From positions 1-43,230 of the forward strand of contig JAFLDE010000024.1 in NCBI GenBank assembly GCA_017302655.1: 43,230 bases of DNA, written 5' to 3'. A program made the position numbers and the translations under genes. The notes under the pieces were generated by a model, which did not search any database, was not told the origin of the DNA, and saw only the letters and a list, made by a program, of their open reading frames with translations. Positions 26,839 to 41,166 of the stretch are shown piece after piece. The stretch's first letter is position 1. Each line of letters starts with the position of its first letter. Source of the DNA: Burkholderiales bacterium. GTDB lineage: Bacteria; Pseudomonadota; Gammaproteobacteria; Burkholderiales; Burkholderiaceae_C.

Positions 26839-27437
26839 AACGCCGCCTGCTTTTGACCCTGGCCGCGCTGCCCCTGCTCGCGCACGCCGACGCCCTGGAT
26901 CAACTCGCCGCCTTCCAGCGCGAGGTGAAGAGCGGCCGCCTGGCCTTCACCCAAACCGTCAGCTCCCCCAGCGGCCGCAAGAAGACCAGCAAGGGGCAAT
27001 TCGAATTCCTGCGGCCCAACCGATTCCGCTTCGACTACGAGCCGCCCGAGGCGCAGATCCTCATCGGCGACGGCAAGAAGGTCTGGCTGATCGACCCCGA
27101 CCTCAACCAGGCCAGCAGCCGACCGCTGGAGGCCGTGCTCGGCAGCACGCCCATTGCCTTGCTGGCCGGCTCCTCGCTGGGCGACGCCTTCAAGCTCAGC
27201 AACGATGCCAGCGAAGGCGACATCTCCTGGGTGCTGGCCGTGCCCAAGCAGGCCGACCAAGGCATCCAGCGCCTGCGCATCGGCTTGCGCCGCAATCAAC
27301 TGGCCGCCATGGAATTGGTGGACGGCCTGGGCCAGCGCTCGCGCCTGGACTTCAGCCGCTTCGAAGCCAATGTGGCCATCGACCCCGAGCGGCTCAAGTT
27401 CGTGCCTGCCAAGGGCATGGATGTCATCGACGGCTGA
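26835..27437 (+). CDS. lolA: Outer-membrane lipoprotein carrier protein LolA
   Basis: 200 residues with a signal peptide ([18 protein letters not shown]), then a LolA beta-barrel-like fold with typical segments: [32 protein letters not shown] and [12 protein letters not shown]. LolA carries lipoproteins across the periplasm from LolCDE to LolB. Its end overlaps rarA by 17 bases, so ftsK, lolA and rarA form one operon in which rarA translation is coupled to lolA. Confidence 0.93.
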
Positions 27438-27846
27438 CCTCTTCGAGCAAGCCCCGGCCCAGCAACCGCTGGCCGAACGCTTGCGCCCCAAGCGGCTCGC
27501 CGAGGTCGTCGGCCAGCAGCACCTGCTGGGCGAAGGCAAGCCCCTGCGCGTGGCGGCCGAGGCGGGGGCTCTGCATTCGATGATCCTCTGGGGCCCGCCG
27601 GGTGTCGGCAAGACCACGCTGGCGCGGCTGCTGGTGGCGGCGTCCGGTCTGCCTTTCATGGCCATCTCGGCCGTGCTCGGCGGCGTGAAGGACATCCGCG
27701 AGGCCGTCGAGCAGGCCCGGGTCCACGGCCGCGCAGCGGTGTTCGTGGACGAGGTGCACCGATTCAACAAGGCCCAGCAGGACGCCTTCCTGCCGCATGT
27801 CGAGTCGGGCCTCTTCGTGTTCATCGGCGCCACCACCGTTCTTTAG
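27421..27846 (+). pseudogene. rarA: Host rarA, 5' fragment cut by the element
   Basis: Codons 1-139 are authentic RarA: the start ADLFEQ, Walker A GPPGVGKT at residues 59-66, and Walker B VFVDE at residues 107-111. The frame then continues in element sequence for two codons (V, L) and meets a TAG. The natural continuation T-T-E-N-P-S-F is found on the other side of the insert at 40285. RarA (MgsA) is an AAA+ ATPase acting at stalled replication forks; without the sensor 1, Arg finger and C-terminal tetramerisation region this fragment should be inactive, though it could still be made from the ftsK-lolA transcript. Confidence 0.95.
27833..27838 (+). repeat. Left copy of the 6-bp junction repeat (attL core)
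   Basis: CCACCG at the left boundary. The same six bases occur at the right boundary (40283-40288). Deleting the sequence between them with one copy joins ACC-ACC-GAG-AAC in frame. The length fits the crossover region of tyrosine recombinases. Confidence 0.85.
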
Positions 27847-27874
27847 CCCTCTTTTCGATACATAGAAGAAGGGC
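27846..27874 (+). repeat. Left-end imperfect inverted repeat around an ATACATAG motif
   Basis: GCCCT-CTTTTC and GAAGA-AGGGC flank a central segment carrying ATACATAG (27858-27865), starting 8 bases inside the left boundary. The motif is 19 bases from the core; the matching right-end motif is 16 bases from its core and in inverted orientation. It may be a recombinase binding site or, as RNA, a terminator for read-through from rarA. Confidence 0.45.
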
Positions 27875-27939
27875 CTTCCTTCCCTCTCTCATAGAGCGGT
27901 TGTCGCTGAACCCGTATCGCGGCAGCTGCACGGCACCTC

Positions 27940-27968
27940 TTGCGAGAAATATAAATACCCTTCATAAT
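27940..27968 (+). promoter_or_regulatory. Predicted element promoter
   Basis: TTGCGA (27940-27945) and CATAAT (27963-27968) are separated by exactly 17 bases in an AT-rich stretch that is unusual for this chromosome. It lies 28 bases upstream of the GTG of the first element gene and would drive the whole element operon. Confidence 0.6.
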
Positions 27969-27981
27969 ACATAGTATGTAT
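27967..27981 (+). promoter_or_regulatory. Palindromic operator overlapping the element -10 box
   Basis: ATACATA-G-TATGTAT is a perfect 15-bp palindrome that overlaps the last two bases of the -10 box. Its position suits repression by a dimeric DNA-binding protein of the element, most simply the small first gene product. Its half-site ATACATAG also occurs near both ends of the element, so one protein may act both at the promoter and at the ends. Confidence 0.55.
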
Positions 27982-27995
27982 CTTGGGAGGGTGGT

Positions 27996-28421
27996 GTGCT
28001 GAGTGGACAGGAGAAGGGCGCGGAGCACTTCGAGGCGTTCAAGCGCTGGGTTGCCGAACTGACCGACGCCGACGCGAGGGCGATGGTGCGTGGTGGCCAA
28101 CTCAATCGCTCTGAAATCTGCAAGGCTGTCGGCTGCGCGCGCTCTGTCCTCCAACAGAACCCGCGAGTCAAGCAGGCCCTTGGTGAACTCGAAGACGGCC
28201 TGAGGGAGCGTGGTGTGTTGCCGCAAGCGCAACAGCACGACAAAGACTTGCCGCTGCGCGCCACTGGCCAGCTCCAGCAAGCAACTGACCGCGAGCGCCT
28301 CAAGCAACTTGAGGTGGAGAACGCATCGCTGCGTGCTGCCCTCACTGAAATGCGTAAGCGCCTTCAACGATACGAAGTGCTGGACGAACTCCTTGCAACT
28401 ACGGGTAGGCGACCGCGTTGA
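27996..28421 (+). CDS. VPA1267-like small DNA-binding protein
   Basis: 141 residues from a GTG with GGGAGG five bases upstream. The central part (LNRSEICKAVGCARSVLQQNPRVKQAL, about residues 36-63) looks like a helix-turn-helix. The last ~50 residues form a leucine-heptad coiled coil (LKQLEVENASLRAAL). The pattern resembles the VPA1267 family that travels with gamma-mobile-trio genes; this assignment is from memory of the family pattern. Its stop overlaps the start of the helicase gene by 4 bases. It could be the element's regulator or a recombination directionality factor; neither is shown. Confidence 0.65.
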   Translation: MLSGQEKGAEHFEAFKRWVAELTDADARAMVRGGQLNRSEICKAVGCARSVLQQNPRVKQALGELEDGLRERGVLPQAQQHDKDLPLRATGQLQQATDRERLKQLEVENASLRAALTEMRKRLQRYEVLDELLATTGRRPR

Positions 28422-30622
28422 CCTCCAGTCTTGAAACGACCAATCTCCGCGTGCAGCGAGTTCGCACGCGCGGCAGCAAGGCTGTCGTCTTCTCTGCCCT
28501 TGCTATCGACTTGGCTGGAGCGGCGAGGCCCACCGCTCCTCGCTACTCAGTAATGGCCCCACGTCGTGTCCTTACATCTGACGTTCAAGAAGGGCAATGG
28601 TGGCGAGTCAGTGGCTCGTTCGAGGATGTGGCCTACGACGCCGACGGCTGGCGGGTTCATGAAAGAAGGCTGCATGCGACAGAGGTCGAGTTGCTCAGGC
28701 CCTCGGGTGAGCACATCGTCCAGTTGCTTGCGCGCAGCGCCGCGTTTCCTGGCATTGGGGAGGTCAAGGCAAGGCGGTTGTGGGAGGCGCTTGGAAGTGA
28801 CCTCTACAAGGCTCTGGATGAGGGCGACCAAGTGCGCATTGCTGAGTGCGTCGGGACCGACCTCGCTGTTGTGCTCCTTGATGGATGGGCCGCCTACGGT
28901 GACTCCGAAGCCGTCGCTGCATTTCAGCGTATGGGGTTGGAGTTGACGGTCTCGCAAAAGCTGCTCGCTGTCTACCGGAGCGAGGCTCTATCAGCCGTCG
29001 CCGAGGACCCTTACCGCCTTCTAGCTTTCGAGCTCTCGTGGCGGGCCACAGATGAACTTGCACGACGCTTCTTTGCCGTGGCTGCTGACGATGCCCGACG
29101 GCTCGGGGCCGCCGCTGAGAGCGTTCTTCACAGTGACCTGGACCGAGGAAATACCTGGACCTCCCAGGAGGAGGTGAGGAGCCAGGTTGCCAAATTGATT
29201 GGTGTCACACACGCTGGCAGGGCACTTGGTCTAGCGCTCGAACGTCACTACGCCGTAGAGCAGGATGGTCGTCTGTATGGCATCGGTGCCTGGGCAATTG
29301 AGCGTTCGCTAAGCGAATGGCTGGTGCGACTCGCTGCTGCGTCTGCGCCAGTCATGGACAAAGTGGAAGTCGATGCACTGATTGAAGCCTACGAGAAGGC
29401 GGAAGCGGAAGTCCTTGGCTCGCACTTCGCGTTGAACGAAGCTCAGCGCGCGGCCGTGCAGGCAGTTGCCACCAGTCGACTCGTGCTTATCACCGGCGGT
29501 GCAGGAGTCGGTAAGACAACGGTCCTTAAGTGCATCCGTTCGATGCTCGATGAAGCGGGGAAGGCCGTCTATCAGATGGCACTATCTGGTCGAGCGGCCA
29601 AGAGGATGGCTGAGGCTACGGGAAAACCGTCGATGACGATTGCTGGGTTCCTCCGCAACGTAGCGAAGGAGGGGCTCCCTGCAGGCAGCACGCTCGTGGT
29701 CGACGAAGCCAGCATGCTCGACGTCCTCCTGGCCTACAGGCTAGTTGGCGCGATGCCAGAGGATGCCCGACTCGTTCTCATAGGCGACCCCTTTCAATTG
29801 CCGCCAGTGGGGCCCGGGCTAACCCTGCATGTCCTGGCTGACGTACCCCAAATCGCCAACGTCGAATTGACGGTTGTCCGACGTTTTGGGGGAAACATCG
29901 CGACAGTTGCCAGTGCAGTGCGAGACGGTCGTCTGCCTGAGTTGCCCTCAAATGACGATGAGGACATCGCGTTCATTGAGTGCAATGAGGACGACGCAGG
30001 CCACGTTGTGCTTGAGTTGTTGGCCAAGCAGCCTGGCGCCACACAGGTTCTCACTTTTACGAAAAGTAGAGGTCCTGTGTCGACCGCTGCGCTGAATGCT
30101 CTGTGCCAGCAGCGGCTTGCAGCAGGTGCGCGGCATCTGCTCGTCTTCAATGAGGAGCGCAGACGCCTTGAGCGCACGGGTTTCCGACTCGATGACCCGG
30201 TGCTTTGCACGAAGAACCTATGGCACCTAGGCCTGCAGAACGGAAGCCTTGGGCGCCTGCACTCGATTGAAGATACACCGCTGGTCGACGTCGATGGGGT
30301 CGCTACGTACGGGTGGATTCGCTGGGACGACGGGGAGCTGCGTGCCGTTACGGATGAGGTTCTTGATGCACTCGAACTCGGCTATGCAATTACCGTTCAT
30401 AAGGCGCAGGGCTCCCAGTTCGGCCGCGTAATTGTTCCTGTGTTCCGTGCCAAGAACCTCGACCGCACGATGCTCTACACAGCGATTACGCGAGCAACGC
30501 GGCAAGTGCTCCTGGTTGGCGACCGCAGTCTTGCAATCGAGGTCATCAAGAACCCACCGAGCGCATCTCAGCGACGGGTAAGCCTAGGCGTGCTTGCGCA
30601 GCGACTGCTTGAGGAGCACTGA
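28418..30622 (+). CDS. RecD2-type DNA helicase of the element
   Basis: 734 residues from a TTG overlapping the previous stop as TTGA. The N-terminal region includes a helix-hairpin-helix-like AFPGIGEVKARRLWEALG near residue 110. The SF1B helicase core follows: Walker A ITGGAGVGKTT (residues 358-368), Walker B VVDEAS (Asp 429, Glu 430), motif III GDPFQLPPVG, the C-terminal VHKAQGSQF and the YTAITRATR motif VI with its Arg finger. This is the order found in RecD2/TraI-like helicases, which move 5' to 3'. The N-terminus is shorter than in chromosomal RecD2. Its place before the recombinases suggests a role in processing or replicating the mobile DNA. Confidence 0.85.
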   Translation: MTSSLETTNLRVQRVRTRGSKAVVFSALAIDLAGAARPTAPRYSVMAPRRVLTSDVQEGQWWRVSGSFEDVAYDADGWRVHERRLHATEVELLRPSGEHIVQLLARSAAFPGIGEVKARRLWEALGSDLYKALDEGDQVRIAECVGTDLAVVLLDGWAAYGDSEAVAAFQRMGLELTVSQKLLAVYRSEALSAVAEDPYRLLAFELSWRATDELARRFFAVAADDARRLGAAAESVLHSDLDRGNTWTSQEEVRSQVAKLIGVTHAGRALGLALERHYAVEQDGRLYGIGAWAIERSLSEWLVRLAAASAPVMDKVEVDALIEAYEKAEAEVLGSHFALNEAQRAAVQAVATSRLVLITGGAGVGKTTVLKCIRSMLDEAGKAVYQMALSGRAAKRMAEATGKPSMTIAGFLRNVAKEGLPAGSTLVVDEASMLDVLLAYRLVGAMPEDARLVLIGDPFQLPPVGPGLTLHVLADVPQIANVELTVVRRFGGNIATVASAVRDGRLPELPSNDDEDIAFIECNEDDAGHVVLELLAKQPGATQVLTFTKSRGPVSTAALNALCQQRLAAGARHLLVFNEERRRLERTGFRLDDPVLCTKNLWHLGLQNGSLGRLHSIEDTPLVDVDGVATYGWIRWDDGELRAVTDEVLDALELGYAITVHKAQGSQFGRVIVPVFRAKNLDRTMLYTAITRATRQVLLVGDRSLAIEVIKNPPSASQRRVSLGVLAQRLLEEH

Positions 30623-30623
30623 C

Positions 30624-32030
30624 ATGCCCATCCCAATTACTCTGGTCAAAGCAAGCGTCAAAACTGACACCACCGGGGCGAGGACCGACGTCCCTGTACT
30701 CGTCACTCCGGCGGGCGTGCTTGAACCGTTGCTCGACTACTTCCTCGCCCGAGCACATGACCGCAGCCTCCAGTGGATGCTCGGTGTTGCTCGAGCGGTG
30801 CGCCTGTTCCTTGAGTACTTGTCTACCAATCCGGCAGAGCGCGATAACTACCGCCTGTTCTTGAACTTCGGTCAGCGCCTGTACACGGGCTCTTACGACC
30901 GCCAAAGTGGGGCAGACCCGAGTGGGCTCGGATGGAGCCCGCTCAGCGAGCCACGTGCTCGCAAGGTGGTGACAGCACTCAACGACTTCTTCGACTACCT
31001 GTCACAGGCAAGGCCAGCGGCTGCTCTTTTCAATCCGAAATATGCAGGCTCTACCTACGACCGCATGGTGGACGAGGCGGCCTATCAGTACCGCCGGGAC
31101 AAGGCGTTCCTGGGGCATACGTGGGCGACTTCCCTGGGTACGGCTGGTGACGCACCTGGTCGACTCTTTCGCGCCAAGAGAGGTGTTCAGGTCGAAACGA
31201 GCGAACCCCCTGCATTTCCAGACCAGCACTTCGAAAGACTGATAACCGAAGGATTCCGCATTGGCGAGCGATACGACTATCGAAACATCCTCATCACCGT
31301 CTTGATGCACTGTGCAGGATTTCGTGAGTCGGAGCCGTTCCACCTCTATATCTCAGACGTGCTTCCCGACCCAGCCAACTCCAAGGCATCGTTGGTGCTC
31401 ATACACCACCCCAGTGACGGGGATGCTCCTGCAGATTGGTATGACCCACAGGGACGCCAGCGCAAAGGTAATCGCAGGGCATATCTGCAAGAGCGCTGGG
31501 GATTGAAGCCTCGGAATGAGGTCCTGGGCTACCACCACGCGGGATGGAAGGGAGGTGCGCACGAGCACGACCTGGGAAGTCTCTACTTTCGCGCGTACTG
31601 GTTCGAACCCTGGTGGGGTGAATTCTTTCGTGCCGTTTGGTACAGATATCTGGGCGAAGTCGCGGTCCATGAGCGTAAGCACCCCTTTGCTTTCGTGAAC
31701 ACGGACCGAGAGCCAACTGGGCACATGTACGCGCTGGCGCAGTTCAACAAGGCCCACGCACGTGCGGTTCGCCGAATCGGTCTTGAGGTCTCTAAGGCCG
31801 CTGGGACTACGCCGCATGGACATCGTCACGCCTACGGACAGCGTCTTCGCGAAGCCGGCGTACCGCGCGAGCTCATTCGCCGCTTCATGCATCACAGCTC
31901 GCTGAGCAGCCAGGAGCCTTACACCATGCCGTCGCTCGCTTCCGCGATGAAAGAGCTGGGCGCAGCAGCGCAGCGGCTTGAGTCAACCATGCGACCACCC
32001 GGAGCACTGTCGGCTGTCTTGGAGTCCTGA
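30624..32030 (+). CDS. gmtY: Tyrosine recombinase, GmtY-like
   Basis: 468 residues from the ATG one base after the helicase stop. The C-terminal catalytic domain holds the full tyrosine-recombinase set: Arg 234 in CAGFRESE, the H-x-x-R box His 398 - Arg 401 in TTPHGHRHAYG, His 424 in FMHHSS and the nucleophile Tyr 433 in QEPYTMPS. The N-terminal ~130 residues are a helical core-binding region. It would cut and join the CCACCG core by a 3'-phosphotyrosine link. The trio name is assigned from gene order, size and motif content; a Tn554 TnpA-like identity is the alternative. Confidence 0.8.
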   Translation: MPIPITLVKASVKTDTTGARTDVPVLVTPAGVLEPLLDYFLARAHDRSLQWMLGVARAVRLFLEYLSTNPAERDNYRLFLNFGQRLYTGSYDRQSGADPSGLGWSPLSEPRARKVVTALNDFFDYLSQARPAAALFNPKYAGSTYDRMVDEAAYQYRRDKAFLGHTWATSLGTAGDAPGRLFRAKRGVQVETSEPPAFPDQHFERLITEGFRIGERYDYRNILITVLMHCAGFRESEPFHLYISDVLPDPANSKASLVLIHHPSDGDAPADWYDPQGRQRKGNRRAYLQERWGLKPRNEVLGYHHAGWKGGAHEHDLGSLYFRAYWFEPWWGEFFRAVWYRYLGEVAVHERKHPFAFVNTDREPTGHMYALAQFNKAHARAVRRIGLEVSKAAGTTPHGHRHAYGQRLREAGVPRELIRRFMHHSSLSSQEPYTMPSLASAMKELGAAAQRLESTMRPPGALSAVLES

Positions 32031-32042
32031 CAAGGAATCGCG

Positions 32043-34985
32043 ATGTCAAAGAGAAAGGGTCCCTCGCTGTCACCTAAGTCCACTCCTTACCAGAAGTACT
32101 CCGATGAGGTGCGCCAACGCGCTCTAACGATGCTGTTGGCGGGTAAGCCACACGCGGTCGTTGCGGATGAACTGGACGTTCCAGACGGGACGCTGGGGTA
32201 TTGGCTCAAGCAGCATCGGAAGCGACAGGGGCACGTGCCGGCCAAGCTAGCCAGCTACACCCCACAGCAGAGGCAACGTGCAATGGAAATTGCGCAGGCT
32301 GAGGGGCTTGAGGCGGCAGCGAGGGCCATCGGCTCGTCAGAAATGGCCGTCTACCGTTGGCTGAGTAAAGCCGGGCTGAAATACAAGGGTCATCGGGGAG
32401 AACGGGGTCGGCTTACTCCGGTAAGCCACGACAAGGACCTCATGTGGATGCGAGATGACTTGCCCGAGCTTGAAGCTTGGCGAGTCCTCGGGGCACAGTG
32501 GATTCGAGAGCAGAAGAAGAGCGTCCGCAGCAAGCTGCTCGTACTTCGGCGGTTCTTTCAGGACTATCTGAAGGACACAGTGTTGAAGGCAGGGTTGCCG
32601 ACCGCCCCGGCTGATGTCCTGTCTCGAAGAACTCTGCTGCCCGACTTCTTCAGTTCCTCGCTCAAAGGCTACAAGGAAAGCGTGAGCCGAGTTCGGAACA
32701 ACTACGTCTGCGACTTCTTGGACTGGGTGCTCCTGACAGAAATGAGTGCGCCCGACGACCACGGACGTCCGGTGATTGGCCCCGAGTTCCACAATCCCGT
32801 GAGGAGACGAGCGCGCGGCGGCGGCGGACAAACAGCCGAGTCAGTGCGCTCGCCGCTTCCGTATGGGTACATCGACGAGCTGCGTTCGATGCTGGCTGGC
32901 GGCCCAACCTTCTCCGATTGGACCTGGGCCCAAAGTGCACTGGGTGGCGACGAGGGCGGCTCGGGCAGCGGTGGTGCGACTGATTGGTTCGAGGTCGAAG
33001 AGAGCCGCATCGACAAGACTGACCCCGATTGCGTCTGGCGCCTCCGCCGCCGTAACAAGGCTAATGGTGGCCCTGTGCTGGAGATGTGGTCGCCCGTACG
33101 CTGGGTAGCGCTACACACCAAGCTCTGTTTGCCGCTGCGCACGACGCAGGTGCGTCTGCTTGACTCCGGCGAAGCCGACACCTGGCGATACAGCTTCTCG
33201 CCGGAGGGCGGCACGTGGACGATTAACGAGCATCGGTTGAAAAGTGGAACTGAGCGCAAGCCCACGCAAAGTGGGGTGTTCCGCCGCAAGCTTCAAATGG
33301 GCGTGGCCACCGCGCCGACTGCGGTGCTGTACATCAATACGAATAAGACGGCTGATGCCAACCTTAGCGGTTCGGACAAGGGATACGAACTGCCTTGGCT
33401 CAGTACCGGGCCTACGCACAGCAATCCGTTTTACTGGCTCGACCGCCTGCGCAACTGGCAGGAGAAGTACAACCCGGTGGCGCGGCGTACACCCTGGTCA
33501 GAGCTCGGACCAAAGCTTCTTGATGCCAAGTCTGATGTGCAGCTTGCAGGGTTCACGGACTCGTGCTTCGTCTTCAGGACGCCGGAGCTAGGTGCGGCCG
33601 AAGCTCACCTTCCGTTGGGCATGAAGGCCCTAGACACGCCTTGGTTCAAACTGCTTGAGGCTTACGAAGAGCGGCTCGCCAATCGAGGCGAAGTGCTCTC
33701 GGACGGCTCACGCATCCAGCTGGTTAAGGAGGGAAAGCAACTGGGCGTGCATTTCCCTCTACATAGCCTTCGCGTCTCTCTCATCACGGCCCTAGCTCTG
33801 GAGGGACAGGTTCCATTCCCAATTCTCCAGAAGATTGCCGGGCATTCGAGGCTTGTGATGACGCTTTACTACACGAAGCTCGGAGCATCCCACGCCAATG
33901 AGCAGCTGGCTGAGGCCGCAAAGCGCCTTGACGCAAGTAAGGACAAGAGCGTCATCCGATTTCTTCGAGACACCGAGTACAAGACTCTGGTCAAGCAAGC
34001 CATTTGCAACAGCTCGACGACTCTGGCGCTGGCCATCGAGGAGCACCCTGGAGCCAGAAACCCCGCAGGTTGGATGCCCATGCATCACGGTATTTGCTTG
34101 GTAGGAGGCAACACAAGCCAGATTGAAGGCAATCGCAGCATTGGTGGTTGCTACAACGGCGGGCCGAACATCGGAACGCCCTCAACACCCCGACATGCGC
34201 CGGTTCCGGGTGGCGCCCGCAACTGCGTACGCTGTCGCTGGTTTGTGACGGAGCCGCACTACCTGTGGGCGCTCCAGGCGCATGCCAACACGCTCTTCTA
34301 CTTCTCGGATGAGGCTATGAAATCGGCCGTGAAGGCGGAGCGACAGCTTGGAGAGCTGCGCGCCGCTCGCACTGATTCCGAGGCCGTAGGCCGACCGTTT
34401 GAGCAGCATGAGTTGCTCGACAAGACTGAGCGCATCTATGAGACGCAAATGCAGCGCTACAGCGACTTGACCGAAGACGTAGCAGCGACCATCCGACTGA
34501 TGCAGCGCTGCGTTGAGAAGGCTAAGGAACTTTCTGCGGGAGCAGCCGCAGATGGCAGGGCCCTCATTGCTGTTGGTAGCGCCTTCGACGTGCAGATTGC
34601 GGTGCAAGAAGTCGACAGCGAATTGCTTCAGCTCGCAGGTGTATGCGACGCAGCTGAGCTCTTCCCTGACATCAATCCTGGAAAGGCGGTTTTCCGGCGT
34701 GGGCAGCTGCTCGATGCCGCCTTGGCGCGCGAGGGGCTTGCACCACTGTTCTTGGGGTTGAGCGAAGAGGACCAACTCGTAGCGGGGAATGCATTCCTCA
34801 AGCGATTGGCCATGGCAGCCAATCCGCAGGACTATGTCCAAGGGAGGCGTGAAGTCATTGCGCTCATCGACGCGGGAAAGCGCCTTAGCGACATGCTGAA
34901 GTTGGACGTGCAGAGCCTTCTCCAAGGTGCTGACCGCAGCCCAGCATCGAGCGCTGAGCCAGCACTGGAGATGAACGATGAGTAA
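32043..34985 (+). CDS. gmtZ: Large tyrosine recombinase with N-terminal helix-turn-helix domains, GmtZ-like (VPA1269 type)
   Basis: 980 residues, about twice a usual integrase. Two helix-turn-helix units resembling transposase-type domains lie at residues ~15-65 and ~75-115 (GKPHAVVADELDVPDGTLGYWL; GLEAAARAIGSSEMAVYRWL). The catalytic set is Arg 366 in LPLRTTQVRL, His 574 - Arg 577 in LHSLRVS, His 601 in IAGHSR and Tyr 610 in LYYTKLG. After it come ~370 residues with a Cys-rich segment (GGCYNGG, CVRCRW) and a helical tail. A ribosome binding site (AAGGAA) is 6 bases upstream. It would bind the ends and exchange the second strand pair with GmtY. Confidence 0.8.
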   Translation: MSKRKGPSLSPKSTPYQKYSDEVRQRALTMLLAGKPHAVVADELDVPDGTLGYWLKQHRKRQGHVPAKLASYTPQQRQRAMEIAQAEGLEAAARAIGSSEMAVYRWLSKAGLKYKGHRGERGRLTPVSHDKDLMWMRDDLPELEAWRVLGAQWIREQKKSVRSKLLVLRRFFQDYLKDTVLKAGLPTAPADVLSRRTLLPDFFSSSLKGYKESVSRVRNNYVCDFLDWVLLTEMSAPDDHGRPVIGPEFHNPVRRRARGGGGQTAESVRSPLPYGYIDELRSMLAGGPTFSDWTWAQSALGGDEGGSGSGGATDWFEVEESRIDKTDPDCVWRLRRRNKANGGPVLEMWSPVRWVALHTKLCLPLRTTQVRLLDSGEADTWRYSFSPEGGTWTINEHRLKSGTERKPTQSGVFRRKLQMGVATAPTAVLYINTNKTADANLSGSDKGYELPWLSTGPTHSNPFYWLDRLRNWQEKYNPVARRTPWSELGPKLLDAKSDVQLAGFTDSCFVFRTPELGAAEAHLPLGMKALDTPWFKLLEAYEERLANRGEVLSDGSRIQLVKEGKQLGVHFPLHSLRVSLITALALEGQVPFPILQKIAGHSRLVMTLYYTKLGASHANEQLAEAAKRLDASKDKSVIRFLRDTEYKTLVKQAICNSSTTLALAIEEHPGARNPAGWMPMHHGICLVGGNTSQIEGNRSIGGCYNGGPNIGTPSTPRHAPVPGGARNCVRCRWFVTEPHYLWALQAHANTLFYFSDEAMKSAVKAERQLGELRAARTDSEAVGRPFEQHELLDKTERIYETQMQRYSDLTEDVAATIRLMQRCVEKAKELSAGAAADGRALIAVGSAFDVQIAVQEVDSELLQLAGVCDAAELFPDINPGKAVFRRGQLLDAALAREGLAPLFLGLSEEDQLVAGNAFLKRLAMAANPQDYVQGRREVIALIDAGKRLSDMLKLDVQSLLQGADRSPASSAEPALEMNDE

Positions 34986-35640
34986 GCGAGAGGCAACCCA
35001 CCCCGATGACGTTCTTGATGCGTTGCTGCAGGGCTGCGCGAGGGAGCAAAAGCGACAGAACCTGCGGCGCCTCCACGAGCTTTGCGCCGCTCAGCATGCT
35101 GGTTCGAAGGACTTCTCTCTGCCGGTCATTGGCAAGCTATGGGAGGCAGCTGGCGGAATCAAGGCGCGAGCTTTGTACAACGCACCCTCGGAGGACTACA
35201 GAACGCTCATCCAGGCTTGGGAGACGCACGCCGGCCCTGTAGAGGTGCGCGCGGTTGAGCCGAAGGGAAAAGCCAGTCATAGCTTTTTGACGCGTATTGA
35301 CGACCCGGCCATTCGGGCCCTAGTGCAAGGGGCGCTCATCGAGAGAGACAAGCTGCAGGCCGAAGTAAACCTGCTGAAGTCGCTCACGCAGCTGAATCTC
35401 GACCGAAGCCCTGCGCTACCCAACCCAGTGCCATCCCACTCTCCAATGCTCGCGCCACCCGACTCGACGGCGAAGCTCACCCCATCGGAGCGCGAGGCAC
35501 TGGAGCGCGCGATTTCCTCGGACTTCTTGAGCGACCAAGGTTGGTCGGAGGGGCGAAGTGGTGAGGTTATGAATGAGAAGGGGCGACGCATCTTCGAATC
35601 GGGTTTCACTCGTGCTATCCGCAAGGTGCTTGCCAAATGA
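34978..35640 (+). CDS. gmtX: Small accessory protein of the recombinase trio, GmtX-like
   Basis: 220 residues starting 8 bases before the GmtZ stop. It has no catalytic Tyr-recombinase residues. The N-terminal half carries FSLPVIGKLWEAAGGIKARAL followed by SEDYRTLIQAWE, a pattern I recognise from the third gamma-mobile-trio protein and which could form a helix-turn-helix. A predicted coiled coil lies near residues 120-140, then a Pro/Ser linker and a charged C-terminus. In Tn554-type elements a small third protein (TnpC) sets orientation and efficiency; an equivalent role here is inferred. Confidence 0.7.
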   Translation: MSKREATHPDDVLDALLQGCAREQKRQNLRRLHELCAAQHAGSKDFSLPVIGKLWEAAGGIKARALYNAPSEDYRTLIQAWETHAGPVEVRAVEPKGKASHSFLTRIDDPAIRALVQGALIERDKLQAEVNLLKSLTQLNLDRSPALPNPVPSHSPMLAPPDSTAKLTPSEREALERAISSDFLSDQGWSEGRSGEVMNEKGRRIFESGFTRAIRKVLAK

Positions 35641-35671
35641 GCAACACATCCACGAACACAGCGAGATAGCC

Positions 35672-36982
35672 ATGTCTGACCTTTTCACTTCGCAGCCAAA
35701 GCCTCCTCTGGCCGAGCTTCTTCGTCCAAAGACGCTGAATGAGGTTGTTGGTCAGCGCCATCTGCTGGGCCCAGGAAAGCCGCTAAGGCTGGCCTTCGAG
35801 GCAGGGAAACTGCACTCCTTCATCCTGTGGGGTCCACCTGGTGTCGGGAAGACCACGCTCGGACGCTTGGCTGCTAACGCAGCAGACAGCAAGTTCATTG
35901 CCATTTCGGCTGTCCTTGCCGGCGTTAAAGATATCCGACAGGCTATTGATGACGCACAAGACGCCCTGGACCGCTATGGCAAGTCGACAGTGCTGTTTGT
36001 CGACGAGATTCACCGCTTCAACAAGTCCCAGCAGGACGCACTCTTGCCGCATGTTGAGTCTGGCCTGCTGACCCTGATTGGCGGGACCACCGAGCACCCC
36101 GGCATGGAGGTGAACAACGCGCTGCTGTCGCGGGCGCAGGTTTACACCCTCACGCCACTTGCGGATGACGAGTTGCAGCAGCTCTACCAGCGTGCCATCC
36201 CTCACCTAGAAGGGGTGACCCTTCACGATGACGCTCTGGTCCTTCTTAAGGGCTATGCAGATGGCGATGGGCGTCGTTTCTTGAACTTGGTTGCCCAAGT
36301 GGCAACTGCTGCCAAAGGTGCTGGCCTAGCCCACGCGTCAGGCGAGTTCGCCAAGGCGTCTACGAGCCCCTCCTTGCGCCGCTTCGACAAGGGCGGTGAC
36401 GAGCTCTACTGGCAGCTTTCCGCGTTCCACAAATCCCTCAGAGGCTCGCAGCCAGACGCGGCGCTCTACTGGTTGGCCCGAATACTCGACGGTGGAGGGG
36501 ACGGGCGTCAGGTGGCGCGACGAATGATTGCGATGGCAAGTGAAGACATCGGCAACGCCGACCCCCGTGCCCTTCAGCTGGCGCTTAACGCTGCGGAAGC
36601 CTACGACAGGCTTGGGTCTCCGGAGGGGGAGTTGGCATTGGCCCAAGCTGTCACGTATCTCGCGCTAGCTCCGAAATCGAATGCCGCCTACCTCGCATGG
36701 AACCAGGCCAAGGCCTTCGTCAAACAAGACGGCTCTCGCCCAGTCCCGATGCACCTTCGAAACGCTCCCGCAAAGCTGATGAAGCAGATGGGGTACGGCT
36801 CCGAGTACCGCTATGCCCACGATGAGCCAGAGGCCTATGCCGCTGGTCAGACTTACTTCCCCGACGGTGTCGAGCCGCCTAGGTGGTACCAGCCCACCGA
36901 ACGTGGGCTGGACATCAAGCTAGGCGAGAAGCTTGCTCGGCTTCGGTCTCTCGATGAGGCTGCGCATGGCCCAAAGACCTAG
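35672..36982 (+). CDS. rarA: Element-borne complete RarA (AAA+ replication-fork ATPase)
   Basis: 436 residues, full family length. Walker A GPPGVGKT at residues 54-61, Walker B VLFVDE near 107-112, sensor 1 GGTTEHPG near 138-144, the Arg finger LLSRAQV (Arg 154) and the complete C-terminal domain ([42 protein letters not shown]) are intact. The protein is clearly divergent from host RarA across its length, so it is not a recent duplicate. Its core-site region keeps ACCACCGAG but differs after it (H-P-G-M for N-P-S-F). It lies 31 bases after gmtX in the same direction and probably restores RarA activity. Confidence 0.93.
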
Positions 36983-37049
36983 AGGGCCGCTTGGCAGTCG
37001 CATCCAAGGCAAAACGCATACGAATAAACTGAAGAGGATATACAGACAG

Positions 37050-38831
37050 ATGACCGCAAAACGTTCAAGCGTCGACCTAGCTCAGCCCAAAGGCCACTCC
37101 CCTGCGGAGCGATTTGCGCACGGCAAAGACATGGCCCGAGGCTTCGCCCAAGGACTGCCTGAAGGAGCTCGGCTTCCTGCAGCACGTGCGTTTTGCTTCG
37201 AGATGCTCTCCGCCTTCTGGACTGCCAAGGCCAAGGCTGCGGGGTCTTCATGGAAAGTTGCGCGCTGTCCTGTGCCGCTCAGCCTGGAGCAACCGGAAGC
37301 CAAGGTGATTGCCTCAGCGCTGGGTGCGGCAGCCGCAGCCGTAGATGACGTCACTGCGGGCTATCTGCTTGGCACGGTCTACACGGCCATGTTGCCGGTG
37401 ACCCTGCGTTCGGAGTGGGGCGCGTTCTACACGCCGCCCCAGTACGTGGAACACTTGCTGGACCAAGCGGAGCGCGCCGGAATTGACTGGAGTCGCGCTA
37501 CCGCAGCAGACCCGGCATGCGGAGGCGGCGCGTTCCTGGCGCCCATGGCGCTGCGCATGTGGCAGCAGAGCAAACTTGGTGGTCCTGAGCTTGCTTTAGC
37601 TGACATCGCTCGTCGGCTACGAGGCTTTGAGCTCGACCCGTTCGCCGCCTGGATGAGCCATGTCACGCTCGAGGCAGCCCTGCTGCCCCTGTGTGCTTCA
37701 GCCAGAAAGCGTATGCCCAAGGTCATCCATGTTGGGGATTCCATGCAGTTGGATATCACTGACAAGTTCGACCTGGTGGCCGGGAACCCGCCCTACTCAA
37801 AGGTCAAAGTGACCGAGCAAATCAAGGCACGGTTCGCTCGCTCGCTTTACGGCCATGCCAACCTCTACGGAATCTTCACAGATTTGGCTGTTCGTATGGT
37901 CAAGCCAGGCGGTGTGGTCGCATTCGTAACGCCGACGTCTTTCCTGGGAGGGCAGTACTTCAAGGCTCTACGGGGGCTGCTGCTGGCTGAAGCTCCTCCT
38001 GTCAGCATCGACTTCATCGCCGAGCGCTCCGGCGTCTTCGACGACGTCCTTCAAGAAACGCTGTTGGTTGCGTACAAGAAGGGTGTCGAAAAGGGAGCGG
38101 TAGCGGTGTCTTCGTTAGAGACAGGCGCAAACGGCCATGTCCACTCCACCCCCGTCGACGATGTCGCACTCTCTTCCGGCGATGGCCCATGGGTTCTTCC
38201 GCGCGAGCCTGCCCGTGCTGCGTTCTTGCAGAAGCTCAGGGATATGCCCGCTCGGCTTTCGACGTATGGCTTCACCGTCAGCACTGGTCCATTGGTGTGG
38301 AACCGGCACAAAGACCAAATGCGCCAGCAGCCTCTCAACGGCGCTCTGCCCCTGGTATGGGCGGAGTCTGTTTCGGCGAAGGGCTTTGGGTTCTCTGCCC
38401 AGCAGCGCAACCATGCTCCCTACATTCAAGTCTTCGCCTCGCAGCCACATTTGGTTATCCAGGATTCGTGCGTGCTGGTTCAACGAACGACTGCCAAGGA
38501 GCAGGAGCGACGCCTTGTCTGTGCTGTGCTTCCACAGGAGTTCATTGACGAGCATGGCGGTGTGGTCGTCGAGAACCACTTGAATGTGGTTCGAGCAAGG
38601 GGTGGCTCCACCATCAGCTCGGACACCATCGCGGCGGTACTTAGCAGCCGTGCGGTGGACGCTGTTTTTCGCTGCATCAGTGGAAGTGTGGCCGTATCGG
38701 CCTACGAGCTGAACGCGATTCCACTGCCCAGCTCTCAAGAGATGCGTGCCATCGAAAAGCTGGTGGCTAGCGGTGCTGACCGACGACTCGTAGAGAAGCG
38801 CCTCGACAAAATTTACGGATTAACAAAGTGA
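37050..38831 (+). CDS. N6-adenine DNA methyltransferase of a type II restriction-modification system
   Basis: 593 residues from an ATG after an AGAGGA site. Methyltransferase motifs run in the gamma-class order: motif X GAFYTPP (residues 124-130), motif I DPACGGG (154-160), motif II GFELDP (192-197) and the catalytic motif IV NPPY (246-249). The C-terminal ~300 residues would be the target-recognition domain. Order and size resemble BsuBI/PstI-type methyltransferases. It protects host DNA from the nuclease encoded next, whose start overlaps its stop codon. The 67-base gap after rarA may hold its own promoter, but none is clear. Confidence 0.85.
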   Translation: MTAKRSSVDLAQPKGHSPAERFAHGKDMARGFAQGLPEGARLPAARAFCFEMLSAFWTAKAKAAGSSWKVARCPVPLSLEQPEAKVIASALGAAAAAVDDVTAGYLLGTVYTAMLPVTLRSEWGAFYTPPQYVEHLLDQAERAGIDWSRATAADPACGGGAFLAPMALRMWQQSKLGGPELALADIARRLRGFELDPFAAWMSHVTLEAALLPLCASARKRMPKVIHVGDSMQLDITDKFDLVAGNPPYSKVKVTEQIKARFARSLYGHANLYGIFTDLAVRMVKPGGVVAFVTPTSFLGGQYFKALRGLLLAEAPPVSIDFIAERSGVFDDVLQETLLVAYKKGVEKGAVAVSSLETGANGHVHSTPVDDVALSSGDGPWVLPREPARAAFLQKLRDMPARLSTYGFTVSTGPLVWNRHKDQMRQQPLNGALPLVWAESVSAKGFGFSAQQRNHAPYIQVFASQPHLVIQDSCVLVQRTTAKEQERRLVCAVLPQEFIDEHGGVVVENHLNVVRARGGSTISSDTIAAVLSSRAVDAVFRCISGSVAVSAYELNAIPLPSSQEMRAIEKLVASGADRRLVEKRLDKIYGLTK

Positions 38832-39898
38832 CCCTTCCACGCATTCCATCCTTTGAAACAATCTTGGAGAGGCTGCCGCGCATCTTCGATGGTGTTGACA
38901 ATCAGGCTTACTGCACTCGAGCCAGCACTGCTAAGACTATCGCCGTCCTTTTTTACGCAGGCGCAATCCATGGTCAGGACCGTTGGATTCGTCCCAGCCA
39001 AGTTACCGAGATGTCGGACGACCAGTTGGCGTTGCAGTCTGATACGGAGCGCGAAGCATGGTGCCAGCTGACCCTCTCCAACCGAAGGAGGCCTCGGCCG
39101 TTAGGTGCTTGGTATGCCCCCAACTCTCGAGAGCAAATTCGTGACGAGAACCTGCGCCAAGGGTTGATTCCCAACGGTGCTGCTCATGAGCGGCCTGGGC
39201 TTCCAACCACTACGTCCCTGCCGAAGTACAGCATGTATGCAGACTTCGCCAATCTTTTCGACGAGACCCTGTCTGGCGTTGACCTGGATACCGCCATCGA
39301 TTCATGGCGAAGCGCACACCTCAGCCATGGTGCCCGTTCTCGTGCTCTGCTGAGAGCCCGAGGCGTCACTGCATCAAGCGCACGCGTGCAAGTGGCGTTC
39401 CCCAACGGCGCTGTGCACGTCCTGGCTCCGGGCCCGAGCTCTGACATATCCAAAGCTGTTGTCGAGGACTTCGCACATCGTTTCCTCGAGGACCCGGCAG
39501 TCTTGTGGCTTTCAGAGAGCGCTGTGAAGGTGCTGGATGATGGATTGGCCACGATGCTTGGTCTAACTATCGACCCCGCTCGCGCACTACCCGACATCAT
39601 TCTTGTCGATGCGGGAGTGCAAGGTGGCGGAGTGCTGGTTGTCTTCGTAGAGGTAGTCAACTCGGACGGGCCTGTCAACCAGGTACGCAGAGACACGCTA
39701 GAGGCGCTGGCTCGCGACGCTGGGTTCAATACAAGCGACATCGTCTATGTCACTGCTTACGCAGACAGAGCGTCGCCAGCCTATCGCTCCAACATCAACA
39801 GCTTGGCATGGGACTCGTTCGTTTGGTTTGCGTCTGAGCCCGACTGCGTGGTGAGCCTACGGCGCGGGACTGCGCGCAAGCTGTCGACACTCAAGTAG
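38828..39898 (+). CDS. BsuBI/PstI-type restriction endonuclease
   Basis: 356 residues from a GTG overlapping the methyltransferase stop as GTGA. The C-terminal part has the BsuBI/PstI family core LPDIILVD (Asp 256) followed by VVFVEVVNSDGP (Glu 275), a PD-(D/E)xK variant. The N-terminal ~180 residues form the family's winged-helix region. PstI and BsuBI cut CTGCAG; the target here is unknown. Coupling with the methyltransferase delays nuclease synthesis and could make the module addictive, which would favour retention of the element. Confidence 0.83.
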   Translation: MTLPRIPSFETILERLPRIFDGVDNQAYCTRASTAKTIAVLFYAGAIHGQDRWIRPSQVTEMSDDQLALQSDTEREAWCQLTLSNRRRPRPLGAWYAPNSREQIRDENLRQGLIPNGAAHERPGLPTTTSLPKYSMYADFANLFDETLSGVDLDTAIDSWRSAHLSHGARSRALLRARGVTASSARVQVAFPNGAVHVLAPGPSSDISKAVVEDFAHRFLEDPAVLWLSESAVKVLDDGLATMLGLTIDPARALPDIILVDAGVQGGGVLVVFVEVVNSDGPVNQVRRDTLEALARDAGFNTSDIVYVTAYADRASPAYRSNINSLAWDSFVWFASEPDCVVSLRRGTARKLSTLK

Positions 39899-40050
39899 TT
39901 GTCGCAAACGCCTCCGCCCCGCTGAGCTCCGGGGTACTTGGCGGGGATAGTTGCTCTTGACGGGCCTCGCTGGTCGTTGGTCGACGGCTGTGTCCGTGGT
40001 GTGCATCTCTCAGAGGCAAACACGCCCTCAGCATTCCACTCTGGCGTCGA

Positions 40051-40170
40051 AGGCCATGTCGTGCTTGCCCCTTGCTCGCGCCAAAGCGGGCAAGGGGTGA
40101 GGCGGTAGCAGCCGGCCCGGTAGGGCTTCGCGCGAAGCGCGAACTGCGTAGCCCGCCGAACACATGGCCT
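40051..40170. other. Nested inverted repeats, a multi-hairpin structure
   Basis: An outer pair AGGCCATGT (40051-40059) and ACATGGCCT (40162-40170) encloses two hairpins. The first is CCCCTTGC...GCAAGGGG (40068-40097), extended to a 12-bp stem with one T-G pair. The second is TTCGCGC-GAA-GCGCGAA (40127-40143), capped outside by GGGC/GCCC. Together they give a cloverleaf-like three-way fold on a single strand. It may be a non-coding RNA, a single-strand origin or a recombination accessory site; the sequence does not decide. Confidence 0.5.
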
Positions 40171-40181
40171 GAGCCTCCGAA

Positions 40182-40266
40182 CTATGCATGATGCTTGAGA
40201 AATACATAGTTTGGATGCATAGTGCGTTTCACAGGTGCGGCGCTCAGTCACTCACGCACTATGTAG
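40182..40266. repeat. Right-end cluster of four CATAG motifs with an inverted pair
   Basis: ATGCATAG on the minus strand at 40182-40189, ATACATAG at 40202-40209, ATGCATAG at 40215-40222 and CTACATAG on the minus strand at 40259-40266. The last two form a 9-bp inverted pair, CATAGTGCG (40218-40226) and CGCACTATG (40255-40263). Matching ATACATAG motifs occur twice at the left end. The arrangement suits arm-type binding sites for the recombinase complex. Confidence 0.55.
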
Positions 40267-40269
40267 GTT

Positions 40270-40286
40270 GTGGGATTAAGTCCCAC
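40270..40286. repeat. Terminal inverted repeat at the right core site
   Basis: GTGGGA-TTAAG-TCCCAC is a perfect 6-bp inverted repeat with a 5-base spacer whose right arm enters the CCACCG core. Core-flanking inverted repeats of this size are typical of sites where a tyrosine recombinase binds. There is no equal repeat on the left junction. Confidence 0.5.
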
Positions 40287-40288
40287 CG
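40283..40288 (+). repeat. Right copy of the 6-bp junction repeat (attR core)
   Basis: CCACCG at the right boundary, identical to 27833-27838. The rarA reading frame resumes here with GAG-AAC-CCC (Glu-Asn-Pro). Confidence 0.85.
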
Positions 40289-41166
40289 AGAACCCCTCTT
40301 TCGAGGTGAACTCCGCGCTGCTGTCGCGCGCCACGGTGCACGTGCTGGAGCCGCTGCAAGCCGCCGACCTGCACGAGCTCTTCGACCGCGGTTGCCGCCA
40401 CCTCAACGCGCAGTGGAGCGAAGAAGCCGCCGCCCAGCTCATCGCCTACGCCGATGGCGATGCACGCCGCATGCTGGGCAGCCTGGAGACGGTGAGCCGC
40501 GCCGTGCAGGGCGTGGTGGGCGAGGAGCAGCTCAAGCAGGTGCTGGGCAAGCAACTGCGCCGCTTCGACAAGGGCGGTGACGCCTTCTACGACCTCATCT
40601 CGGCTCTGCACAAGTCCGTGCGGGGTTCGGACCCGGACGCCTCGCTGTACTGGTTCGTGCGCATGCTCGATGGCGGCGCCGACCCGCGCTACCTCGCCCG
40701 CCGCCTGGTGCGCATGGCCAGCGAAGACATCGGGCTGGCCGACCCGCGCGCGCTGCGCCTCACGCTGGACGCCTTTGATACCTACGAGCGCCTGGGCAGC
40801 CCTGAGGGTGAGCTGGCGCTGGCCCAGGCCGTCGTCTATCTGGCCGTGGCGCCCAAGAGCAATGCGGTCTACACGGCCTACAAGGCGGCACGGGCCTTGG
40901 TCGAGAAGGACGCCAGCCGTCCGGTGCCCATGGAGCTGCGCAACGCGCCGACGAAGCTCATGAAGACGATGGGCATGGGCCAGGGCTACCGCTACGCCCA
41001 TGACGAACCCGACGGCTTCGCGGCCGGCGCGCACTATCTGCCCGAGGGCGTGGAGGAACGCTTCTACACACCCACCGAGCGCGGGCTGGAAGGCAAGATC
41101 GCCGAGAAGCTGGAGCGCTTGCGCGAGGCCAATGCGGCGGCTCGTGAAGGTTTGGGAAAGCGCTGA
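40288..41166 (+). pseudogene. rarA: Host rarA, 3' fragment
   Basis: 292 codons from E-N-P-S-F-E-V-N-S-A-L-L-S-R to the natural stop, including the Arg finger region and the whole C-terminal half ([47 protein letters not shown]). Joined to the 5' fragment it gives a 431-residue RarA with no gap or frameshift, so the insertion is recent or under little decay. A GTG at 40270 in the element opens into this frame, but no convincing ribosome binding site precedes it. Its end lies 8 bases from the convergent regulator gene. Confidence 0.95.

Follow-up and report, generated by a model that had tools for sequence, protein, structure and literature searches.

A Gamma-Mobile-Trio island that splits rarA carries a divergent complete rarA, and parallel islands suggest that a spare is brought for the gene that is broken

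The stretch of DNA analyzed here (the window) comprises 43,230 nucleotides, i.e., positions 1 to 43,230 of contig JAFLDE010000024.1 from a Burkholderiales bacterium (assembly GCA_017302655.1), and contains a copy of the gene rarA that is split by a mobile island carrying a second, complete rarA. Host rarA, which follows a lolA-like gene recognized by eye, starts with an ATG at 27421, and its codon 139 ends at 27837, after which the frame meets a stop within the insert. The insert, which includes one copy of a direct repeat, measures 12,450 bp and occupies 27839-40288 on the forward strand. Both host pieces remain open frames on the forward strand, the 5' piece (codons 1-139) at 27421..27838 and the 3' piece, from codon 140 to the stop, at 40285..41166. 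The 6-bp direct repeat CCACCG flanks the insert at 27833-27838 and 40283-40288, and the flanks with one repeat copy were read by eye as in-frame codons of GATTENP, so that a precise exit would leave an intact rarA site. In all five of the other same-genus genomes searched, rarA gave a single uninterrupted match, and in DNA alignments to these five genomes the left arm reached 27838 and the right arm restarted at 40283-40285. The GC content of the insert was 59.8%, compared to 68.4% for the remaining window. The junctions, repeats and same-genus alignments agreed with an earlier note on this DNA, which had placed a 12,450-bp insert after codon 139 of host rarA.

The insert was identified as a Gamma-Mobile-Trio (GMT) island with the gene order VPA1267-recD2-gmtY-gmtZ-gmtX, followed by rarA and then by restriction-modification cargo, all on the forward strand. 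Scores above the curated NCBIfam cut-offs were obtained for the VPA1267-family protein (141 residues, 27996..28421; NF040697, 150.5 bits), the tyrosine recombinase GmtY (30645..32030, in a frame open from 30594; NF040693, 493.7 bits), the integrase GmtZ (980 residues, 32043..34985; NF047926, 893 bits) and GmtX (220 residues, 34978..35640; NF040692, 204.9 bits). GmtZ additionally matched Integrase_2 and, with a transposase-like helix-turn-helix at its N-terminus, HTH_Tnp_1. The RecD2-like superfamily 1B (SF1B) helicase (734 residues, 28418..30622) was above the cut-off for HHH_RecD2 and, with 344 bits, below the cut-off of 500 for TIGR01448. The complete element rarA (436 codons, 35672..36982) begins 31 bp past gmtX. 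The cargo consists of an Eco57I-like adenine methyltransferase (36933..38831; Eco57I 51.7 bits, MTase_II 757 bits) and a BsuBI/PstI-type restriction endonuclease (38828..39898; BsuBI_PstI_RE 132 bits, REase_II 343 bits). Adjacent gmtY, gmtZ and gmtX in that order, a discrete insertion with short direct repeats, which are a hallmark of GMT islands, and defence or offence cargo in the form of a type II restriction-modification pair were thus all found in this insert. The heptamer TACATAG closes the left terminus (27839..27865) at 27859-27865 and recurs at 27968, at 40203 and, inverted as CTATGTA, at 40259, the last two in the right terminal region (40180..40282); an additional copy lies inside the island at 33760. 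The heptamers in the terminal regions may be recombinase sites.

Residues 5-429 of the element RarA aligned with the solved RarA 3pvs_A, which we take to be that of E. coli, and the alignment covered the Walker A and Walker B stretches with their motifs conserved. The description of the insert as encoding a full-length RarA with intact ATPase motifs, on the same strand as the host gene, was thereby borne out. Identity to the host pieces was 67% for the N-terminal piece (66-67% over element residues 1-140) and 58% for the C-terminal piece. No second complete RarA was found in the genome of the window (99.96% complete), in which the element copy is the only complete one. At the attachment position, the element RarA reads GGTTEHPGM, as opposed to GATTENPSF in non-mobile full-length RarAs; in the alignment, GATTENPSF stood at the cut position in all 45 full-length RarAs outside the mobile clade described below.

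A second island of this type was found amongst 93 other GMT loci fetched by homology, of which 13 came from family and class searches and the rest were the best 80 of 104 relatives in a scan of 84,980 species genomes. RarA adjoined gmtX in one of these loci, from the bacterium Alcaligenaceae CGII-64, with identities to the window proteins of 83-84.5% (RarA), 80% (GmtY), 72-74% (GmtZ) and 74% (GmtX). A search of the whole CGII-64 genome returned three RarA matches, namely the element copy and two host pieces, the N-terminal one ending at the same residue as in the window, and no other complete RarA. The CGII-64 N-terminal piece leads into a left island end near-identical to that of the window, the core gene order is the same, and the direct repeat reads CTACCG at both junctions. 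This island is split across three contigs. Its cargo differs and includes, with names given by eye, a SulP-type transporter, a UspA-like protein and an ArsR-like regulator; genes resembling an arsenic operon were also seen by eye on another contig. Amongst 61 genomes of the family to which CGII-64 belongs, 60 of which gave a RarA match, rarA was broken at this codon only in CGII-64. The search that the earlier note had proposed, for rarA interrupted at the same codons elsewhere, thus yielded an island that matches that of the window in core gene order and encodes a sister of its RarA. Separately, the CGII-64 recD2 appeared by eye to be interrupted by an IS3-type element, the sequence of which recurs at contig breaks (the end of L163, both ends of L072 and the start of L164).

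The ancestry of the element RarA was examined in a tree of 53 of 55 aligned rows, from which the two N-terminal host pieces were left out and in which the bootstrap had not settled. The two element RarAs were sisters (support 98/86) inside a mobile clade (100/100) that held four further RarAs, three from plasmid modules and one present as a second copy in a genome from the family of CGII-64. The C-terminal host piece of the window was placed with its own genus (98/92), and the CGII-64 host piece formed a long branch outside the mobile clade without a resolved placement. The tree that the earlier note had called for paired the element copies away from chromosomal RarAs, and the note's claim that the element rarA is no fresh duplicate and seems to travel with the element is consistent with the identities to the host pieces, the separate clade and the sister in CGII-64. 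A comparison of five element genes across the two islands showed RarA to be the most conserved (pN 0.107, with synonymous sites saturated), and its sequence indicates that it is under purifying constraint.

The plasmid RarAs in question, from Aeromonas caviae (L166), Shinella (L167) and Comamonas (L168), were 80-82% identical to the element RarA, have the same altered motif GGTTEHPG, and adjoin genes for UvrB, formaldehyde dehydrogenase and S-formylglutathione hydrolase, with uvrA in two of the three (the Shinella stretch lists none). Neither GMT proteins nor a further RarA piece were detected in these stretches, and a literature search on RarA with formaldehyde gave nothing that was judged relevant. 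A further second RarA, 79% identical, was observed at 87-1373 of contig C103 in a Comamonadaceae metagenome-assembled genome (G1229), where a full-length host-type rarA (66%) is present as well. A viral carrier of the island was rejected, as a search of IMG/VR with the window GmtZ found no relative; eight RarA relatives were present there, seven at 38-53% identity and one 152-residue piece at 72%, and the 57 RarA matches in phage records were all below 60% identity. Plasmids as carriers of GMT islands were likewise set aside, the 147 plasmid records matching GmtZ all being below 60% identity. For RarA, PADLOC gave only marginal candidate matches.

Across the wider GMT family, 92 of the 93 fetched loci had no RarA match in the stretch examined, and rarA was present and not broken at this codon in all 49 other GMT-bearing genomes searched (in three of these, one rarA copy matched as two adjoining pieces, at other points). 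The earlier note had stated that family members without rarA, inserted elsewhere, would speak against its reading; such members are the rule in the wide family and were not seen in the immediate lineage of the window island. Its suggestion of a link between RarA and the RecD2 helicase of the element was not supported, because of the 33 loci among the 93 with a RecD2 match, 32 had no RarA match. The methylase and endonuclease of the window (36933-39898) had no match in the 93 loci.

The target-plus-spare design reaches beyond rarA. Loci were searched against themselves for a complete gene together with broken homologous pieces, at the start with 94 loci and then with 97 sets, to which downstream sequence was added where fetched (45 consisting of the core locus alone, 37 extended by contiguous downstream sequence and 15 placed side by side with N between). 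Besides other repeats and paralogues, this self-search revealed a broken srkA (NF008738) with a spare in L092, L093 and L096, and whole-genome searches found both srkA pieces and the spare in genomes G1212, G1213 and G1214, in the last on two contigs. A broken radA (TIGR00416) with a spare was found in L060; a whole-genome search of G528, an assembly of three contigs, placed the N-terminal piece at 219210-219962, the spare at 258634-259968 and the C-terminal piece at 264751-265338, and four other genomes in that search each had one continuous radA match. A broken greB (TIGR01461) with a spare was found in L065 (genome G112), with both pieces within the joined set. A second greB island, on contig C198 of G1237, was first seen at a flank, and the rest of the contig was then read; the spare and the N-terminal piece lie in L293 (4976-5152, 12639-13115) and the C-terminal piece in L278 (18208-18630), about 152 kb apart, and the two pieces overlap by 95 bp of exact DNA; the complete spare is situated close to one end. 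The distance between these halves could reflect a very large or a nested island. In total, a split target with a matching spare was seen in 8 of 98 GMT loci (rarA 2, srkA 3, radA 1, greB 2), which is no unbiased rate because the search was aimed at such pairs and coverage of many loci was incomplete.

The insertions lie in conserved motifs, i.e., GATT|ENPSF in RarA, the HGDC region in SrkA, just past KNRFG in RadA and SENAEYQ in GreB (L065). Direct repeats of 6 bp were present in both rarA cases and at radA (GAGATC), the greB junctions in L065 share 8 bp, and no clear direct repeat was seen at the srkA junctions. The spare lies directly past gmtX in the rarA islands and in the greB island of L065, between gmtZ and gmtX in the radA island, and at the far end in the srkA islands. 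A GmtZ tree was built from 49 of 97 rows (96 loci with a long-enough GmtZ and the window), taking the target cases and selected others and then every third of the rest; it was a quick tree with no bootstrap and with several long branches, including L065. In it the rarA pair, the four srkA islands and the greB pair each formed one clade with an SH-like approximate likelihood ratio test (SH-aLRT) support of 100. The four SrkA spares also formed one clade (100/99). As a side observation, a thymidine kinase gene (tdk) immediately precedes gmtY in two GMT islands that are related to each other (L059, 5409-5963; L090, 4995-5627); no split tdk was seen for them, and tdk is a possible fifth spare. Pairs of similar genes in opposite orientation also occur within or beside the GMT region of L094 (7898-8434 and 14166-14726) and L141 (8018-8914 and 10375-11292).

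The disruption of host rarA, the intact spare, the recurrence at an identical codon in another bacterium, the shared clade of the spares and the parallel targets are direct observations, and they suggest that islands come with a spare of the gene that they interrupt. For the window, we consider it probable that a GMT island integrates at the conserved rarA motif and carries a divergent, complete rarA so that the cell keeps a RarA. In such a mechanism, GmtY and GmtZ would recognize the DNA of the GATT|ENPSF motif, thereby choosing the site, and would integrate there with a 6-bp stagger. The spare, next to gmtX, would be expressed together with the recombinases and would compensate for the cut host gene. 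It would presumably be kept because the cost of integration falls, so that a conserved site present in many hosts becomes usable. The target-gene replacement strategy proposed in the earlier note gained support from the CGII-64 case, the RarA tree and the parallel srkA, radA and greB islands. With somewhat less assurance, we lean towards a broader interpretation, in which insurance of the target gene is a recurrent GMT strategy. Each recombinase lineage would be fixed on one core-gene motif (rarA, srkA, radA or greB) and would travel with the corresponding spare, which often lies within or next to the recombinase operon; the island would replace the core gene and tie itself to the host. The spare differs from the host gene at the attachment site and may therefore be immune to re-insertion. 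Such immunity was a weak candidate for an adaptation to the island, since GGTTEHPG also occurs in the plasmid RarAs that have no GMT gene in their stretches, and the altered motif thus looks like a pre-existing property.

Several observations weigh against compensation as the role of the spare. Only two islands of the rarA type were found, and most GMT loci showed no target-plus-spare pair (the self-search gave 5 of 97 sets, with L072 and L278 recognized separately). In genome G1215, an island with a srkA spare (L097, 18181-19239) lies outside srkA and the host srkA is intact, so an island can carry a spare and leave the corresponding target untouched; L097 also shows a frame break in gmtZ. 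The clade of the rarA spare is also found in the plasmid formaldehyde and uvr modules, and RarA may therefore bring a benefit of its own. Additionally, rarA is dispensable in E. coli, and compensation may thus matter little.

In an unlikely alternative, RarA is a beneficial passenger, conferring tolerance of DNA damage or aldehydes, or aids fork processing by the element; once carried, it made insertion into rarA tolerable, with selection acting on the trait and not on sparing the host. The nearest plasmid relatives, next to uvr and formaldehyde genes with no GMT protein detected, and the srkA-spare island outside srkA are in line with this explanation. By itself, it leaves unexplained why islands with a spare rarA, srkA, radA or greB occupy exactly those genes; moreover, the two rarA islands have different cargo but rarA in common, and SrkA and GreB have no obvious element functions. 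A shared preference of the recombinases for conserved coding motifs, with spares that are coincidental or decaying, would account for insertions in motifs as strongly conserved as GATTENPSF, HGDC, the position past KNRFG and SENAEYQ. We regard it as quite improbable, because in all eight split-target islands the matching spare is open over its full length (in cases partly found by seeking such pairs) and because of the purifying constraint indicated for RarA.

Two further explanations concern the arrangement itself. The draft assembly of 203 contigs could in principle have produced a chimera in place of a real insertion, which we hold to be very improbable given the precise 6-bp repeats, the second, independent case with a repeat variant of its own, and the parallel cases in other assemblies, including the three contigs of G528. 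The element RarA could also be a duplicate or gene-conversion product of host rarA, being the same gene on the same strand and close to the broken copy. Its divergence from both host pieces, its position in another clade at 100/100 and its sister in a bacterium named Alcaligenaceae leave this with practically no likelihood, and duplication was ruled out on the identities and the RarA tree.

The best-known insertion sites of integrating elements are tRNA genes, gene ends and neutral sites, where the harm done is limited. The islands described here interrupt conserved genes for repair, a kinase and transcription in mid-sequence, apparently at the price of bringing a spare. If so, mobile elements would offer one way for foreign versions to replace core genes of replication and repair. 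The spare would predict the attachment site and vice versa, and the link between GmtY/GmtZ lineage and target motif would be directly testable. As a caution, a core gene found complete in a draft assembly may be the copy of an element.

GMT islands are a described family (Mahata et al. 2024, Nat Microbiol, as cited in PMC12039261 and PMC12715929). The window island resembles them in its GmtX, GmtY and GmtZ scores, in VPA1267 and RecD2-like genes as in other GMT loci examined, and in its restriction-modification cargo; it differs in the insertion of its lineage into rarA and in the full replacement rarA on board. The literature covered, in which srkA, radA and greB were not searched by name and the founding GMT paper was not included, contained no report of rarA as an insertion site or of spare-copy islands generally, and the rarA target-plus-spare arrangement in GMT islands is provisionally regarded as new. 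The plasmid RarA modules share with the element a closely related RarA and its altered motif, and differ in that neither a GMT protein nor a second RarA piece was detected beside them.

The design as such is already known for recA. As described in the respective reports, the recA mobile element (RME) of Vibrio cholerae S24 is a 32.8-kb island in recA that carries a divergent recA, excises as a circle and restores recA (PMC4405046), in agreement with the comparison made in the earlier note, and Vibrio parahaemolyticus 090-96 has a similar recA island with a 6-bp overlap (PMC4334540). Like the window island, these elements interrupt a conserved gene for DNA repair at a defined position and bring along a divergent but complete copy, and the 6-bp overlap of 090-96 is a further likeness. 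The RMEs differ in their target, recA, in a size of about 30 kb, and apparently in their recombination genes, given as a phage integrase and XerS in V. cholerae and one annotated site-specific recombinase in V. parahaemolyticus; the recombinases of the window island are GmtY and GmtZ. The gene sizes printed for 090-96 do not appear to resemble those of the GMT trio, in a comparison made by description only. With rarA in place of recA as both target and spare, the window island works like an RME without necessarily being one.

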